Shown in pieces: positions 37,701-43,057 of a stretch of DNA of 64,000 bases. The position numbers and the translations under genes are program-made. The stretch is from Dietzia aurantiaca (GTDB lineage Bacteria > Actinomycetota > Actinomycetes > Mycobacteriales > Mycobacteriaceae), in contig NZ_JAIFXZ010000005.1 in assembly GCF_021033825.1 (NCBI RefSeq), forward strand, positions 62,001-126,000. Direction: 5' to 3'. Positions within the stretch are counted from its first letter, which is position 1, and every line of letters starts with the position of its first letter. A model generated the notes under the pieces. It had not been told where the DNA came from. It saw nothing but the letters and a program-made list of their open reading frames with translations, and did not search any database.

Positions 37701-38945
37701 TCAGCTCGCGACGGGACAACTACCCAGATCGACCTTCCACTCGGTGAGTCCGTTGAGCCACCCCGAGCGAAGCCGTTTGGGGTCGCCGAGCGAGGTGAGG
37801 TCCGGCAGGTGGTCGGCGATCGCGTTGAAGATCAGCTCCAGCTGCATCTTCGCCAGGTTGGCGCCGATGCAGTAGTGCGGGCCCTGGCCACCGAAGGTCA
37901 CGTGCGGGTTCGGGTCGCGCAGGATGTTGAAGGTGAACGGGTCCTCGAACACCTCCTCGTCGAAGTTCGCTGAGCCGTAGCAGAGCAGTACGCGGTCTCC
38001 CTTGGGGATGGCCACTCCCCCGATCTCCACGTCCTCCATGGCGGTGCGCTGGAACTGGGTGATCGGCGAGGCCCACCGCAGGATCTCGTCGTAGGCCGTC
38101 TCCGGGCGCTCGGCCTTGAACAATTCCCACTGGTCAGGGTTCTCGAGCATCGCGACCATGCCGTGGGTGGTGGCGTTGCGGGTGGTCTCGTTGCCGGCCA
38201 CGGCCAGCAGGGTGACGAACCAGCCGAACTCCTCGGGCGAGAGGTGCTCACCGTCGATGTCGGCCTGGACGAGCTTGGAGACGATGTCGTCCTGCGGGTT
38301 CTCGGCGCGGTCCACGGCCATCGTGTGGAAGTACTCGATGAGCTGCATGGACGCCACGGCGGCGAGGTCCATGCCGCCGGGCGCGTCGTAGCTGGTCATG
38401 GTGTTGGACCACTCGAAGATCTTGTGGCGGTCCTCCTGCGGCACGCCCAGCAGGTCGGCGATCGCCTGGAGCGGCAGCTCGGAGGCGACGGCCGTCACGA
38501 AGTCGTCGGCGTTGTTCTCGGCGGCCTCGGTGACGATCTTGCGCGCGCGCTCGGAGAGTTCGTCGCGCATGCCGGCCACTCCGCGCGGGGTGAAGCCGCG
38601 CGAGATGATCCGGCGGTGCTTCTTGTGGATTTCACCGTCCTCGTTGACCAGCATCTCGCGCTGGGCCTCGATGATCGAGCGGTCGGTGCCCTCGGCGAAG
38701 CGCGGGATCATGGTGTTCTCGCCGGCGGAGAAGGTCTCTCCCGTGACGCGGGAGATCTCCTTGACATCCGCGTGCTTGGTGGCCAGCCAGTAGTGGTCGT
38801 CGTCGAATCCGTCGATGCCGCGTGGCTTGTCGACGCGTCGGATCGGCTCGGACTGGCGCAGCTGGCGCCACTCGTCGTGCGGGAGCCGCTTCTCGAAGAG
38901 CTCGGGATCGGTGAAGTCGAACCCCGCGGGGATGGTCACGTCCAT
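37701..38945 (-). CDS. Cytochrome P450, CYP125/CYP142-like steroid-type
   Basis: A 414-residue soluble P450 from ATG 38945 (MDVTIPAGFDFTDPELFEKRLP). I-helix AVAGNETTRN, ExxR in DEILRW, and heme loop FGGQGPHYCIGANLA (Cys about 359) are intact. Long stretches such as ISRGFTPRGVAGMRDEL, ELPLQAIADLLGVPQEDRHKIFEWSN and the end RLRSGWLNGLTEWKVD closely resemble mycobacterial CYP125, the C27 steroid hydroxylase. Unlike CYP125 genes in the cholesterol regulon, no KstR-type operator is seen upstream; a divergent MarR gene is adjacent. Electron donors are not encoded nearby. Confidence 0.88.
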   Translation of the reverse strand: MDVTIPAGFDFTDPELFEKRLPHDEWRQLRQSEPIRRVDKPRGIDGFDDDHYWLATKHADVKEISRVTGETFSAGENTMIPRFAEGTDRSIIEAQREMLVNEDGEIHKKHRRIISRGFTPRGVAGMRDELSERARKIVTEAAENNADDFVTAVASELPLQAIADLLGVPQEDRHKIFEWSNTMTSYDAPGGMDLAAVASMQLIEYFHTMAVDRAENPQDDIVSKLVQADIDGEHLSPEEFGWFVTLLAVAGNETTRNATTHGMVAMLENPDQWELFKAERPETAYDEILRWASPITQFQRTAMEDVEIGGVAIPKGDRVLLCYGSANFDEEVFEDPFTFNILRDPNPHVTFGGQGPHYCIGANLAKMQLELIFNAIADHLPDLTSLGDPKRLRSGWLNGLTEWKVDLGSCPVAS

Positions 38946-38998
38946 GGTGTCTCCTGCGCCTCGTAGCCCGCCGGGTCCGACGGGACTGAAACCGTGAA

Positions 38999-39029
38999 TA
39001 GTGGTAACTATATACACGTGGCACTATCT
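38999..39029. promoter_or_regulatory. Candidate MarR operator between P450 and marR genes
   Basis: ATAGTG (from 38998) and CACTAT (to 39027) are inverted repeats around an A/T-rich core containing TATATA (39009-39014). A MarR dimer could repress both divergent genes from here. The match was found by eye and is modest. Confidence 0.35.
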
Positions 39030-39470
39030 GCGAGTGAGATTCTCGACCGCGCTCTGATGCTGTCGGAGGAGATGTCCGGCTCGATCGAGCGCGCGGCCGC
39101 GAACTACGGGCTCACCGTGCCGCGCCTGGAGCTGCTGTTCGTCCTGGGCCTGCAGGGTCAGTGCAAGCAGGTCGAATTGGCCGCCTACCTGGACTGTTCC
39201 CCGCGCCAGGTGACCGCGCTCGTGGACGGTTTGGAGGCGAGCGGACATGTGGAGCGCACCATGTCGCCGGAGGACCGGCGGGTTCGCCTGATCGATCTCA
39301 CCGTCGAGTCGCGTCGGATCGTGGATGAGGTGGTGTCGGCGCGCGTCGCCCTGGCGGAGTGGCTGTTCGAGGGGCTCGACGACGACGAGCTGCAGACGTT
39401 CGGAGCCATGTCGGAACGCCTCATCTCACGGATGAGTGGTCGTTCGCTGGTTCGGCTGCCCGAGCAGTGA
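39018..39470 (+). CDS. MarR-family transcriptional regulator
   Basis: A 150-residue winged-helix regulator from GTG 39018 (MALSASEILDRAL); GTG 38994 is a possible earlier start. The recognition region CKQVELAAYLDCSPRQVTALVDGLEASGHVERTMSPEDRRVRLIDLT shows the DRR-x-wing typical of MarR. It is divergent from the P450 gene with 72 bp between the starts, so it probably controls that gene in response to its substrate. Confidence 0.88.
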   Translation: MALSASEILDRALMLSEEMSGSIERAAANYGLTVPRLELLFVLGLQGQCKQVELAAYLDCSPRQVTALVDGLEASGHVERTMSPEDRRVRLIDLTVESRRIVDEVVSARVALAEWLFEGLDDDELQTFGAMSERLISRMSGRSLVRLPEQ

Positions 39471-39471
39471 G

Positions 39472-40029
39472 TCAGACGCTACAGGCGGCGCAACCGGAGC
39501 TCTCGCGGGCGTACTCCACGAAGCCGCGCGCCTTGTAGTTGGGGATCGCGGCAGGGGAGTCGTCATCACACGTGTGCAGCCACACCCGGCGGCAACCCGG
39601 CACGTTCCAGGCGATGCGGCAGACCTCGGACAGGAACCATCCACCCAGGCCATGGCCGGCGAACTCGGGGAGTATGCCGAAGTAGACGATCTCCACGTCG
39701 ACCCCGTCGTCCGTACTCTCATTCGCGCCCGTGGCGAAGGAGTCGACGGCCGGGTCGCAGGGGCTCATACGCAGTTCGGCGAATCCGGCGACCTCACCGT
39801 CGACGGCGGCCCGGAGGGTGCTGATGCACGGGTCCGAGGCGTATGACGCCCAGTGCCCGTCTGACCACTCGAGGCGGTCGATCCAGTTCCAGTCGGCGCC
39901 GATCTCCCGGTACATCCGGGCGTTGAGCGCGGGGTCGGCGGGGAAGACGCGGCTGATCGTGAGATCTGCAGGGGCAGCGGGCCGGAGCTGGTCGGCGGCG
40001 GTCTGCTGCAGGTAGGTCACGCTGGTCAT
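39472..40029 (-). CDS. GNAT-family N-acetyltransferase
   Basis: A 185-residue acetyltransferase from ATG 40029 (MTSVTYLQQTAADQL). The acetyl-CoA-binding region is VEIVYFGILPEFAGHGLGGWFLSEVCRIAW, followed by RVWLHTCDDDSPAAIPNYKARGFVEY, the canonical late GNAT motif. The C-terminus SSGCAACSV contains two cysteines. It ends 1 bp after the convergent marR gene. Substrate unknown. Confidence 0.87.
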   Translation of the reverse strand: MTSVTYLQQTAADQLRPAAPADLTISRVFPADPALNARMYREIGADWNWIDRLEWSDGHWASYASDPCISTLRAAVDGEVAGFAELRMSPCDPAVDSFATGANESTDDGVDVEIVYFGILPEFAGHGLGGWFLSEVCRIAWNVPGCRRVWLHTCDDDSPAAIPNYKARGFVEYARESSGCAACSV

Positions 40030-40049
40030 CGCGCTATTCAAACACCGAA

Positions 40050-40083
40050 CCCTCCCGCGCCCAAGACGTACGGCGCGGGAGGG
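40050..40083. terminator. Bidirectional hairpin after the small-protein cluster
   Basis: CCCTCCCGCGCC (40050-40061) and GGCGCGGGAGGG (40072-40083) form a perfect 12-bp stem with a 10-nt loop, 49 bp beyond the last gene of the small-protein cluster and just before the GNAT gene. No U-tract. Confidence 0.65.
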
Positions 40084-40131
40084 CTCGGCAGCGGACGGTC
40101 ACGAACGCCCCGAGCGGGGTGAGCGCGGCGA

Positions 40132-40422
40132 TCAGTTGAAGTGGAACTCCGCGATTCCCGGGAGCTGGAGTCCGTTGAGCACATTGGCCGAGCCGGAAGC
40201 AAAGTCGTTGTGTCCGCTGACTGCAGCGTTTTCAACGCCCTCGATGACAAATGGGTTGGAAACAGAAGCCGCGACTCCTGCGCCCCCCGCGAGTCCAGCG
40301 GCACCCGCACCGGCTGCGAAACCGCCGACCATCACCGGTGTCACACCGAATGCGGCAGCCGCGCCCGCCGCAGGGCCAAGAATGAGTCCACCCAGTAAGA
40401 CGAGACCTTCGACAATGCCCAT
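40132..40422 (-). CDS. Unrecognised 96-residue hydrophobic Gly/Ala-rich protein
   Basis: Not recognised. ATG 40422 has a clear ribosome-binding site (TAGGAG, 8 nt spacing). Residues 1-55 are hydrophobic and Gly/Ala-rich (GLVLLGGLILGPAAGAAAAFG, VMVGGFAAGAGAAGLAGGAG), enough for two membrane helices with no cleavable signal. The second half is polar (NAAVSGHNDFASGSANVLNG) and the protein ends EFHFN. Codon use is less GC-biased than in neighbouring genes and includes the rare TTA. It is last in a three-gene set on the minus strand; the preceding protein ends QLHFG, a similar C-terminus. A pore or envelope peptide is one possibility. Confidence 0.65.
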   Translation of the reverse strand: MGIVEGLVLLGGLILGPAAGAAAAFGVTPVMVGGFAAGAGAAGLAGGAGVAASVSNPFVIEGVENAAVSGHNDFASGSANVLNGLQLPGIAEFHFN

Positions 40423-40456
40423 TATTGCTACTCCTAGTTGTTAGGTGGCTACTTGA

Positions 40457-40945
40457 CTAACCGAAGTGAAGTTGTCCGGGTTGGACCTGGGGACGAGGAT
40501 TCACCTCGGGCAGGTTCAACTCGATACGCGGCGAAGGGGCCGCAGGTGGTGCCGGTGGCGCGGCAGCGATCGGTGGCGCAACCGCTGGAATTGGGACTGG
40601 AACTGGAGCTCGGACCTGCGCCGGTGGAGGCGGTATGGACACACTCCGTGAGCGAGGACGCACCGACTCGCGCTCTTCCCTGGGGGCAGTGGACGGGATC
40701 GCAGCAATTGATGTGGATGTCGTCAGGACTGCTTCTGTGGATGTAGCCGGTAGGACGGGTTCTCGAAAAACGAGCCCGTCCTGGACGGCGACGCTGGCTG
40801 GCTTGATGGAAGCGCCTGAATGCGCCTTTGAATCCATCGTGATATGGGCAGCCATGGCTCCACCGGTGATCCCGGTGAGGGATAGTGCCCCGGCGGCGAA
40901 AGGGATGATTAGCTTCTTTCCCGTTCTACTGCCAAGGCTCGTCAC
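40457..40945 (-). CDS. Unrecognised exported proline-rich protein
   Basis: Not recognised. GTG 40945 (MTSLGSRTGKKLIIPFAAG) begins a likely signal peptide (basic n-region, ALSLTGITGGAMA). The mature region is Ser/Ala/Thr- then Pro-rich ([34 protein letters not shown]) and ends with ELNLPEVNPRPQ and QLHFG. Such proline tracts are common in wall-spanning actinobacterial proteins. 162 residues. The start is 1 bp after the upstream gene's stop codon, so translation is probably coupled. Confidence 0.65.
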   Translation of the reverse strand: MTSLGSRTGKKLIIPFAAGALSLTGITGGAMAAHITMDSKAHSGASIKPASVAVQDGLVFREPVLPATSTEAVLTTSTSIAAIPSTAPREERESVRPRSRSVSIPPPPAQVRAPVPVPIPAVAPPIAAAPPAPPAAPSPRIELNLPEVNPRPQVQPGQLHFG

Positions 40946-40946
40946 T

Positions 40947-41156
40947 TCACCACCAGCCGTAAGCCATCGCGTTGTTCTTGACCACATCGAGATGATGCGG
41001 GGCGATCCCCGCCTGGGCCCAGGCGTCGTAGGCGTCGTGCTGCAGATCGGTAGAAGCGGCCTGAGCTCCGGGAATCATATTGATCACGCCGGCGAGCGCG
41101 GCGTTGGCCATCACCCAGATCGGGTTCGAGATACTTCCGAAGTAGAAATCTTCCAC
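40947..41156 (-). CDS. Unrecognised 69-residue small protein, first of a three-gene cluster
   Basis: Not recognised. GTG 41156 has AGGGGAG upstream. The sequence begins MEDFYFGSISNPIWVMANAA, has a hydrophobic stretch (VMANAALAGVINMIPGA) and ends NNAMAYGWW. No cleavable signal peptide. Size, acidic aromatic N-terminus and lack of signal are reminiscent of corynebacterial PorA/PorH channel peptides, but no sequence match is claimed. It is separated by one base from the exported proline-rich gene downstream. Confidence 0.6.
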   Translation of the reverse strand: MEDFYFGSISNPIWVMANAALAGVINMIPGAQAASTDLQHDAYDAWAQAGIAPHHLDVVKNNAMAYGWW

Positions 41157-41485
41157 GGGACTCCCCTATGCGATGTGCTGATGCGATCCGCATCAAGTTC
41201 GGCTGTGACGCCTGGGCTTGTCTTAGACCCTGCCGCCACACGGCCTGATCAGCTCGTGCGGCGAGAACGTTAAGGTTTGCCCGGTTGGCGCTCAATGGTT
41301 TCGACCGCTAAACGAAGCGCCGCCGCGAAATGGGCCAGAACTGCTCTGACAGAGAGTTCCGCAGAATATATTTATCTACACAGGTGGCGGTAAGTGCTGC
41401 GCTACTGTTGGCATATCAGCATTAACATAAGAGTAAACTTTCGCGGCTGTATGATGTGACCGATATCACTCGGTCGGGGCCGCGT
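41157..41485. other. A/T-richer promoter region upstream of the small-protein cluster
   Basis: A 329-bp gene-free stretch between the minus-strand cluster start and the end of the MFS efflux gene. Its middle (about 41335-41460) is far more A/T-rich than the rest of the window (AGAATATATTTATCTACA, CATTAACATAAGAGTAAAC). GACCGA (41458-41463) and TCGGTC (41470-41475) form a short stem next to the MFS stop, a weak terminator. Promoters for the cluster most likely lie here. Confidence 0.5.
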
Positions 41486-43057
41486 TTAGTGCTCCAGGTC
41501 GGCGAGCATCGTGCCCTTCGGGGTCAGGTAGAACACCACGAACGCGAACACCAGCAGGATGAGCCCGCCGATCAGCCCTGCCATACCCAAGCCGGAGGTG
41601 AAGGCCTCGCCGGCTCGTGTGGCCAGGTCTGGCAGCTGCGCGGCGTCTGCCACAGCCATGGCCCCGCCAAGGGAGTCGCGGGCCGCTTCCGTGGCCTCCT
41701 CGCCCAGCATCAGCGCCTCGGCCGGGGTGCCGAGGTTCCGCCGGTAGAGGAACGAGGCCAACGAACCCAGCAAGGCGATACCGAGGACGGCACCGAACTC
41801 GTACGAGGTGTCCTCCATGGCGGCGGCGTTGCCGGCCTTGGAACGCGGGACGCCGCCCATGATCATCGAGGAGGCCAGGGCCAGCGCGCCGATTCCTGCC
41901 CCGATCAGGGCGAGTGCGATGAACACTGAAGTCAGCTCCAGGTCCTCGCCCCGGATGCCCAGGAAGAGCATGCCGGCGCCGGCGACGAAGAGCGCCAGGA
42001 AGATCGTGGCGCGCATCCCGATCCGCTCCGAGGCGACGGGTGCCAGGAGCGAGGTCACAGCGGCGGCCAGTGCCAGCGGCATGAGTTGGAGACCGGACTC
42101 GAACGCGGACGCGCCGTTGACAAGCTGCAACCACTGCGCGAGCAATAGCAGCCCGGCGGACATGGAGAAGCTCGCGATGAGCGCGGCCAGCACACCCGCG
42201 GAGAAGATGCGGTGCCGGAACATCGTCACATCGAGCAGAGGAGACGTTGATCGCAGGCAGCGCCGGACGAACCAGCCCAGGGCAACTACTCCCACGACGA
42301 AGGCGATCCACGCCGGGAGGTAGGTCATCGAGGCCTCTTCGCTGAACTTCTTGATGGCCCAGATGGTGGTCGACATGCCGACGAGCGTGAGAGCGGCGGC
42401 GAAGGGGTCCCACGGCCCGGGCTCGGGCACGCGGGACTCGGGAACGGTGAAGATGGCGCTGATAAACGCGATGACCATCATCGGCACGCTGACCAGGAAC
42501 GCGGACTGCCAGTGGAACGTCTCCAGGAGGAAGCCGCCCAGCAACGGTCCGACGGCCGCACCGATGCCGGCGACCGCGGCCCACACGGCCAGGGCTGTCG
42601 CGCGCTCGCGGGTGTCGGTGAATGTCACACGCAGCAGCGACAGGGTGGACGGCATGACCATGGCCGCGCCGATACCAAGGAGGACGCGCAGCGCGATCAC
42701 GAAGCCGGGGGAGTGCGCGAAGAGTACGAGGACCGAGGCGAGCGCGATGAGGGCGTAACCCAGCATGAGCATGCGCTTGCGGCCCCAGCGGTCGGCGATC
42801 GACGACATGGAGATGAGCAGGCCGGCCATGACCAGCGAGTACACGTCGATGATCCACAGCTGCTGGGAGGCGGTGGGCTGTAGGTCCGCCGACATCTGCG
42901 GGATCGCCACGTTGAGGATCGTCATGTCCGTGGTGATGGCCAGCAGTGAGAACGTCAGCGTGACCAGACCGAGCCAGCGGCGCGCCGGATCGTACGAGCC
43001 CACGATGTGCGGGTCGGCCCGCAGCTCACTCCGGGCGGGTGTAGTGGTGTCGCTCAT
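41486..43057 (-). CDS. DHA2-type (14-helix) MFS drug efflux transporter
   Basis: A 523-residue QacA/EmrB-like antiporter from ATG 43057 (MSDTTTPARSEL). Motifs: TILNVAIPQMSADL in helix 1 region, SIADRWGRKRMLMLGY (motif A), LRVLLGIGAAMVMPSTLSLL, and AAVAGIGAAVGPLLGGFLLE (motif C). Fourteen helices fit the length. It overlaps the TetR gene by 4 bp, so regulator and pump form one operon. Likely substrates are cationic drugs or antiseptics, by family. Confidence 0.92.
   Translation of the reverse strand: MSDTTTPARSELRADPHIVGSYDPARRWLGLVTLTFSLLAITTDMTILNVAIPQMSADLQPTASQQLWIIDVYSLVMAGLLISMSSIADRWGRKRMLMLGYALIALASVLVLFAHSPGFVIALRVLLGIGAAMVMPSTLSLLRVTFTDTRERATALAVWAAVAGIGAAVGPLLGGFLLETFHWQSAFLVSVPMMVIAFISAIFTVPESRVPEPGPWDPFAAALTLVGMSTTIWAIKKFSEEASMTYLPAWIAFVVGVVALGWFVRRCLRSTSPLLDVTMFRHRIFSAGVLAALIASFSMSAGLLLLAQWLQLVNGASAFESGLQLMPLALAAAVTSLLAPVASERIGMRATIFLALFVAGAGMLFLGIRGEDLELTSVFIALALIGAGIGALALASSMIMGGVPRSKAGNAAAMEDTSYEFGAVLGIALLGSLASFLYRRNLGTPAEALMLGEEATEAARDSLGGAMAVADAAQLPDLATRAGEAFTSGLGMAGLIGGLILLVFAFVVFYLTPKGTMLADLEH

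Follow-up and report, generated by a model that had tools for sequence, protein, structure and literature searches.

What do three closely spaced small genes on the minus strand of a Dietzia aurantiaca contig encode, and do their products act together in the cell envelope? The window analysed here is a stretch of 64,000 nucleotides, in which we call the three genes A, B and C (Table 1). The initial annotation had described three minus-strand open reading frames (ORFs) of 69, 162 and 96 residues ending in AYGWW, QLHFG and EFHFN, and re-reading of the sequence confirmed all of this. A and B are separated by a single base, and B and C by 34 bases.

Table 1. Features at and around the gene set, in window coordinates.
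Feature	Position	Strand	Description
Gene A	40947..41156	minus	69 aa, GTG start, tail AYGWW
Gene B	40457..40945	minus	162 aa, GTG start, tail QLHFG
Gene C	40132..40422	minus	96 aa, tail GLQLPGIAEFHFN
Hairpin, candidate terminator	40044..40089	minus	18 pairs, loop of 10, downstream of C
Intergenic, presumed promoter region	41157..41485	minus	upstream of A, A/T-rich in part
Gene that we take to be GNAT-like (MTSVTYLQQT...)	39472..40041	minus	flank, outside the system; conserved neighbour of the chromosomal locus

The A protein has three predicted helices in an AlphaFold model built from three aligned sequences, at moderate confidence (pLDDT 72). No signal peptide was recognised in A by eye. The B protein has a hydrophobic stretch near its N-terminus (residues 12–30), and the AMA at residues 30–32 was read by eye as a putative cleavage site. 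A QDGL motif follows, then a proline-rich middle and the QLHFG tail. In C, glycine and alanine make up 42% of the residues, and there is no lysine or arginine. C has two hydrophobic stretches (residues 7–25 and 27–45), and inspection by eye did not recognise a signal peptide. Its AlphaFold model, again from three aligned sequences, is all-helical with three helices, at low confidence (pLDDT 52). The Pfam search gave nothing above the cut-offs for the three proteins, and for B no match whatever. We rejected two candidates that fell below the cut-off at chance level, T4BSS_DotI_IcmL for A (E=0.14) and FAD_binding_2 for C (E=0.62). NCBIfam returned no match for A, B or C, and when the C profile was run against PDB sequences, a single match at chance level came up.

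Codon use in the three genes is indeed less GC-biased than in the surroundings, as had been noted. GC3 is 0.77 for A, 0.59 for B and 0.62 for C, compared with 0.82–0.94 for four neighbour genes, and a single TTA codon is located in C. In comparisons with two relatives, dN/dS is 0.10–0.15 for A, 0.12–0.15 for C and 0.25–0.40 for B, at dS values of 1.1–2.7, which are near saturation. These ratios indicate that A, B and C are under purifying selection, and they support the coding status of all three.

The DNA on either side agrees with the initial annotation in part. The strong terminator proposed after C corresponds to a stable 18-pair hairpin, situated just upstream of the GNAT-like gene; the fold of positions 40025–40134 has an energy of −64.3 kcal/mol (z −4.5). 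However, the hairpin is without a T-run, and it was not reported by a terminator scan in which loops of 3–8 were allowed. On the other side of the genes, the lowest GC within 38000–43000 is found at 41000–41499 (0.576), and this minimum includes part of A; the region upstream of A is A/T-rich in part. No sigma-70-type promoter match was found in the intergenic region upstream of A. An inverted repeat, GATGCG-ATC-CGCATC, is present at window positions 41180–41194, 23 nt upstream of A; the aligned relatives are gapped there.

A profile of C matched 22 of 23 Dietzia genomes, the exception being G005 (98% complete). The GTDB family was represented by 301 genomes, and none of its 278 non-Dietzia members was matched. 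When the single C sequence was the query instead, 17 of the 23 Dietzia genomes were matched. We inspected 30 C homologues, which include those of two named plasmids and omit locus L032, the same as L031. A proline-rich B is encoded directly upstream of C at every locus with sufficient upstream sequence (24/24, one B gene lacking its start at a contig end); at the remaining six, the contig ends before the B position. A, in contrast, was matched in 4/23 Dietzia genomes, which rules it out as a core member, and the conserved unit is therefore B–C. In a search of named genomes, relatives of A were found in D. natronolimnaea S-XJ-1 and Dietzia sp. SLG310A2-38A2. The identity of C to the window's C is 70–71% in relatives with A and 28–40% in ten others. 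Of the proposal that three genes are conserved together, B–C across Dietzia is what remains, and A is accessory. The B–C gene pair is well supported as real and conserved, and among the genomes searched it is limited to the genus Dietzia.

The gene after C is GNAT-like at 18 of the 30 loci (at L036 it is broken across two frames). At 11 loci it is a gene that we call v8, and the other loci are of the chromosomal type. Neither gene follows C at L069, whose genome gave no match to the GNAT-like protein. MarR-like and P450-like genes, named by eye, lie downstream at the chromosomal loci that were read. Another small ORF follows C in G001 (L029:6370-6561) and G017 (L030:646-861); these end in GVNV and GIQI, respectively; they have the hydrophobic-x-hydrophobic element and lack the Gly or Asn.

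The C-terminal ends of both proteins are conserved in a general form, in line with the matching tails that the initial annotation had pointed out. B ends in hydrophobic-x-hydrophobic-Gly in 23 of 24 proteins, the sole deviant ending in LHIP. C ends in hydrophobic-x-hydrophobic-Asn in 28 of 30, the deviants ending in KFGN and VHRP; the Asn tail is missing from C of G022. The homologues are mutually related, so these counts are not independent events. As a background set we took from the window and the loci 340 mechanical ORFs with a length of 100 aa or more and a GC3 of 0.85 or more. With "hydrophobic" defined slightly more broadly than for the homologues, the pattern occurs in 4 of these. Three of the four are C homologues, so the count is otherwise 1/337. 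The exact HF tail, which the initial annotation had read as a possible sorting or assembly signal, is confined to this strain. It was dropped, the nearest relatives ending in LQVG (B) and FHVN (C), while the general pattern was kept. More distant pairs of B and C tails are ITIG with LTVN, LHIG with VHFN and IRIG with IVIN.

Seven Dietzia genomes (G003, G004, G010, G011, G018, G020 and G021) have a copy in which C is followed by v8, with B present where the contig reaches. By eye, the v8 protein shows a hydrophobic segment and, at its C-terminus, a domain that is conserved; it gave no match in the family search. On contig C67 of G011 (L077), the genes that come after v8 encode a cutinase (PF01083), DUF6668 and small membrane proteins, and an M23+SLT hydrolase, assigned by family match, lies further along the run. 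By eye, the other v8-type contigs look similar where they are long enough. On contig C39 of G003 (L074, L086), the run continues to an SCO6880-family protein and then to a TraG/VirD4-type coupling protein. A VirB4-like match in this run is weak and far below the cut-off, and a MobF relaxase is encoded on the opposite strand. Relatives of C are also encoded on five Dietzia plasmids in PLSDB, whose records are typed there as "non-mobilizable"; pDK313-83 and pI have the gene order B, C, v8, cutinase, DUF6668. In G022, B–C–v8 is found on a 3.6-Mb contig (L076:5041-6972), and no further transfer genes were recognised by eye within 11.5 kb. This may be a relic arrangement or an intermediate one.

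The distribution of v8 is wider than that of these runs. We found its relatives in 20 of the 23 Dietzia genomes and also in 245 plasmid records, of which Rhodococcus accounts for 164. In five near-complete genomes (G008, G012, G015, G016 and G019), v8 relatives (E 1e-11 to 1e-15) are on the main contig and remote from B–C, so the v8 domain may also act outside conjugation. The window's own genome gave no match to v8. The extra copies of B–C are inside a conjugative gene run whereas the window's copy is not, and secretion genes are absent from its surroundings.

According to PMC6794481, work on a Rhodococcus plasmid showed that its conjugation is promoted by a cutinase; this suggests that envelope-opening functions belong near such genes. 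An envelope role for B–C, as the initial annotation had suggested, is supported by the neighbours of the extra copies (conjugative type IV secretion genes, a cutinase and a cell-wall hydrolase) and by the porin searches. The MspA model (PF09203) matched 0/23 Dietzia genomes; as a positive control, the same model matches 59 of 81 family genomes and 25 of 31 genera, and the five Dietzia genomes among the 81 are unmatched. In Corynebacterium, the small helical proteins PorA and PorH are thought to make a two-part mycomembrane pore (PMC12632848 and PMC5944148). PorH and PorA have 57 and 45 aa, respectively, and neither has a signal sequence, according to PMC12632848.

A longer protein of 403–429 aa is encoded next to v8 in other genera, before v8 in Rhodococcus pRECF1 and after v8 in two Gordonia plasmids. 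It has a signal-peptide-like start, QPGIT/QGGVT repeats, a proline-rich stretch and a motif such as PIAPPPEKIRIGNF. Glycine-rich hairpins and then an amphipathic end make up its C-terminal part, and Pfam gave a glycine-zipper match below the cut-off in one of three. Its plasmid relatives in Rhodococcus and Prescottella carry the annotation "insoluble domain protein". We found no literature under this name, and none that combines "glycine zipper" with "mycomembrane". A profile of the longer protein matched 118 of 251 genomes and 18 of 31 genera, where weaker matches may reflect composition; none of the 20 Dietzia genomes listed was matched. The longer protein lies within ~3 kb of v8 in 11 of the 11 records common to both sets of matches listed (20 of 245 for v8 and 60 of 156 for the longer protein).

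We compared this protein with B and C. All of the 22 B proteins compared have the motif QxG[ILV] early in the exported part; by shuffling, 2.17 would be expected. In the longer protein it is less marked, at 23/33 against 12.31 expected. Using a matrix that held one misplaced motif window, the B tail was the best KIRIG-like segment in 8/22 B proteins, and with the same matrix the tail of the B protein studied here ranks 13th of 163 segments. No B or C protein scored significantly when 2217 Dietzia ORFs were searched with the longer-protein profile (hmmsearch), and common descent is unsupported. Profile–profile alignment with hhalign was weak for B (E=0.0023, probability 5.1%) and for C (E=0.048, probability 0.6%), and A gave no alignment. 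As the profile matches are weak or absent, the case for linking B–C to the longer protein depends on position, on order and on short motifs. We claim that the two appear alike in position and layout; descent is not established.

What, then, might B–C do? Our leading reading, held tentatively and at somewhat less than an even chance, is that B–C is a two-protein envelope complex forming or scaffolding an opening in the mycomembrane. B and C would be two subunits of a single Dietzia envelope complex. Directed by its export signal, B would cross the inner membrane and then extend, as a proline-rich rod, across the cell wall. C, as a Gly/Ala-rich helical-hairpin protein, would be destined for the mycolic-acid outer membrane. 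The matching tails may be a docking or assembly signal that joins B to C, or both to a shared partner. The chromosomal copy would serve a general mycomembrane opening, and the copies near type IV secretion genes an opening for conjugation. Beyond the export signal of B, we infer each step: location, complex, tail function and pore. The features of B and C, the failure to find MspA in Dietzia, the PorA/PorH precedent and the role of cutinase together suggest an envelope-spanning complex with C in the mycomembrane. Counted against this opening are the lack of a significant profile match to the longer protein; the window's copy without secretion genes in a genome without a v8 match; the poor model of C; the lack of a visible export route for C; G022 without the Asn tail and G005 without C; and the weak KIRIG rank, the less marked QxG[ILV] motif in the longer protein and the gene order in Gordonia. 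A bolder form holds that B–C is the missing conduit by which type IV systems of mycolic-acid bacteria pass DNA through the outer membrane, split in Dietzia and a single protein in Rhodococcus and Gordonia. The chromosomal copy would then have been domesticated as a general channel replacing MspA, with the tails as a mycomembrane assembly signal. We regard this form as unlikely.

The main rival to an opening is a structural module without a pore, which we consider somewhat unlikely. B would tether the mycomembrane to the inner membrane or the wall, C would be the outer-membrane anchor, and the envelope would be stabilised where the growth or conjugation machinery opens it. Such a tether would suit the N-terminal hydrophobic stretch, long proline-rich spacer and conserved end of B; C is hydrophobic with a conserved tail, and a cutinase and a cell-wall hydrolase are encoded next to copies of the pair. 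PorH and ProtX, two small proteins of Corynebacterium, are reported in PMC12632848 to be probably attached to the wall. However, no wall-binding domain was found in B or C with Pfam and NCBIfam, and a position near transfer genes would suit a conduit equally.

Two further readings place B–C among mating or peptide functions. C could serve as a subunit of the pilin or mating-contact kind, with exported B as its partner; the two would build a surface contact structure, and the chromosomal copy would be used for adhesion. C is close in size to VirB2-type pilins, has two hydrophobic stretches and stands beside transfer genes. The same runs, however, encode other small membrane proteins that are more VirB2/VirB3-like by eye (one of these gave no Pfam match), a processing site was not recognised in C, and the chromosomal copy is near-universal in Dietzia; we judge this reading very unlikely. 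It is highly improbable that B and C act as peptides of the bacteriocin or pheromone kind, or that they make up an entry-exclusion pair. Such a role would account for small, hydrophobic and fast-varying sequences, and exclusion genes are common in transfer operons. Against it stand the occurrence in 22/23 Dietzia genomes, mainly in one syntenic place and under purifying selection, and the fact that maturation or immunity genes were not recognised by eye near the chromosomal copy. For the "secreted peptide system" of the initial annotation, no support emerged.

B–C, a gene pair with matching C-terminal tails, offers a small testable handle on two questions of mycomembrane biology: how proteins are delivered to and inserted into this membrane, and how plasmids pass across it. 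The pair is near-universal in a genus for which the MspA search was negative, and further copies of it adjoin transfer genes. According to reference lists, a porin of Dietzia maris was first described in FEBS J in 2014, and PMC4901239 mentions that report.

The proposed B–C complex can be compared with several known systems. MspA-family porins are mycomembrane channels of related genera; unlike them, A, B and C gave no match to PF09203 in Pfam. By description, B–C resembles PorA/PorH in being small proteins from adjacent genes. C is the more similar partner, being hydrophobic, helical in its model and with no signal peptide recognised by eye. PorA and PorH are both signal-less, whereas B has a putative export signal and differs by its N-terminal hydrophobic stretch and proline-rich spacer. 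Proteins of the TonB/VirB10 type have an N-terminal hydrophobic stretch, a proline-rich spacer and a short conserved C-terminal part. B shares a hydrophobic stretch, a proline-rich spacer and a conserved end with these by analogy, with no domain match. The "insoluble domain protein" of Rhodococcus and Gordonia differs from B–C in that it is one polypeptide (ORFs of 397–604 aa, starts not curated), whereas B and C are the products of two genes. In Gordonia it comes after v8, whereas B–C of Dietzia comes before it, and a cutinase is not annotated in the two Gordonia stretches read, unlike in the Dietzia runs. Like the extra B–C copies, the "insoluble domain protein" adjoins v8 in transfer runs, with a cutinase nearby in pRECF1. 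Its QxG repeats, proline-rich stretch, KIRIG-like motif and glycine-rich hairpins follow one another in the order of B and then C, and B–C supplies a working hypothesis for this plasmid protein.
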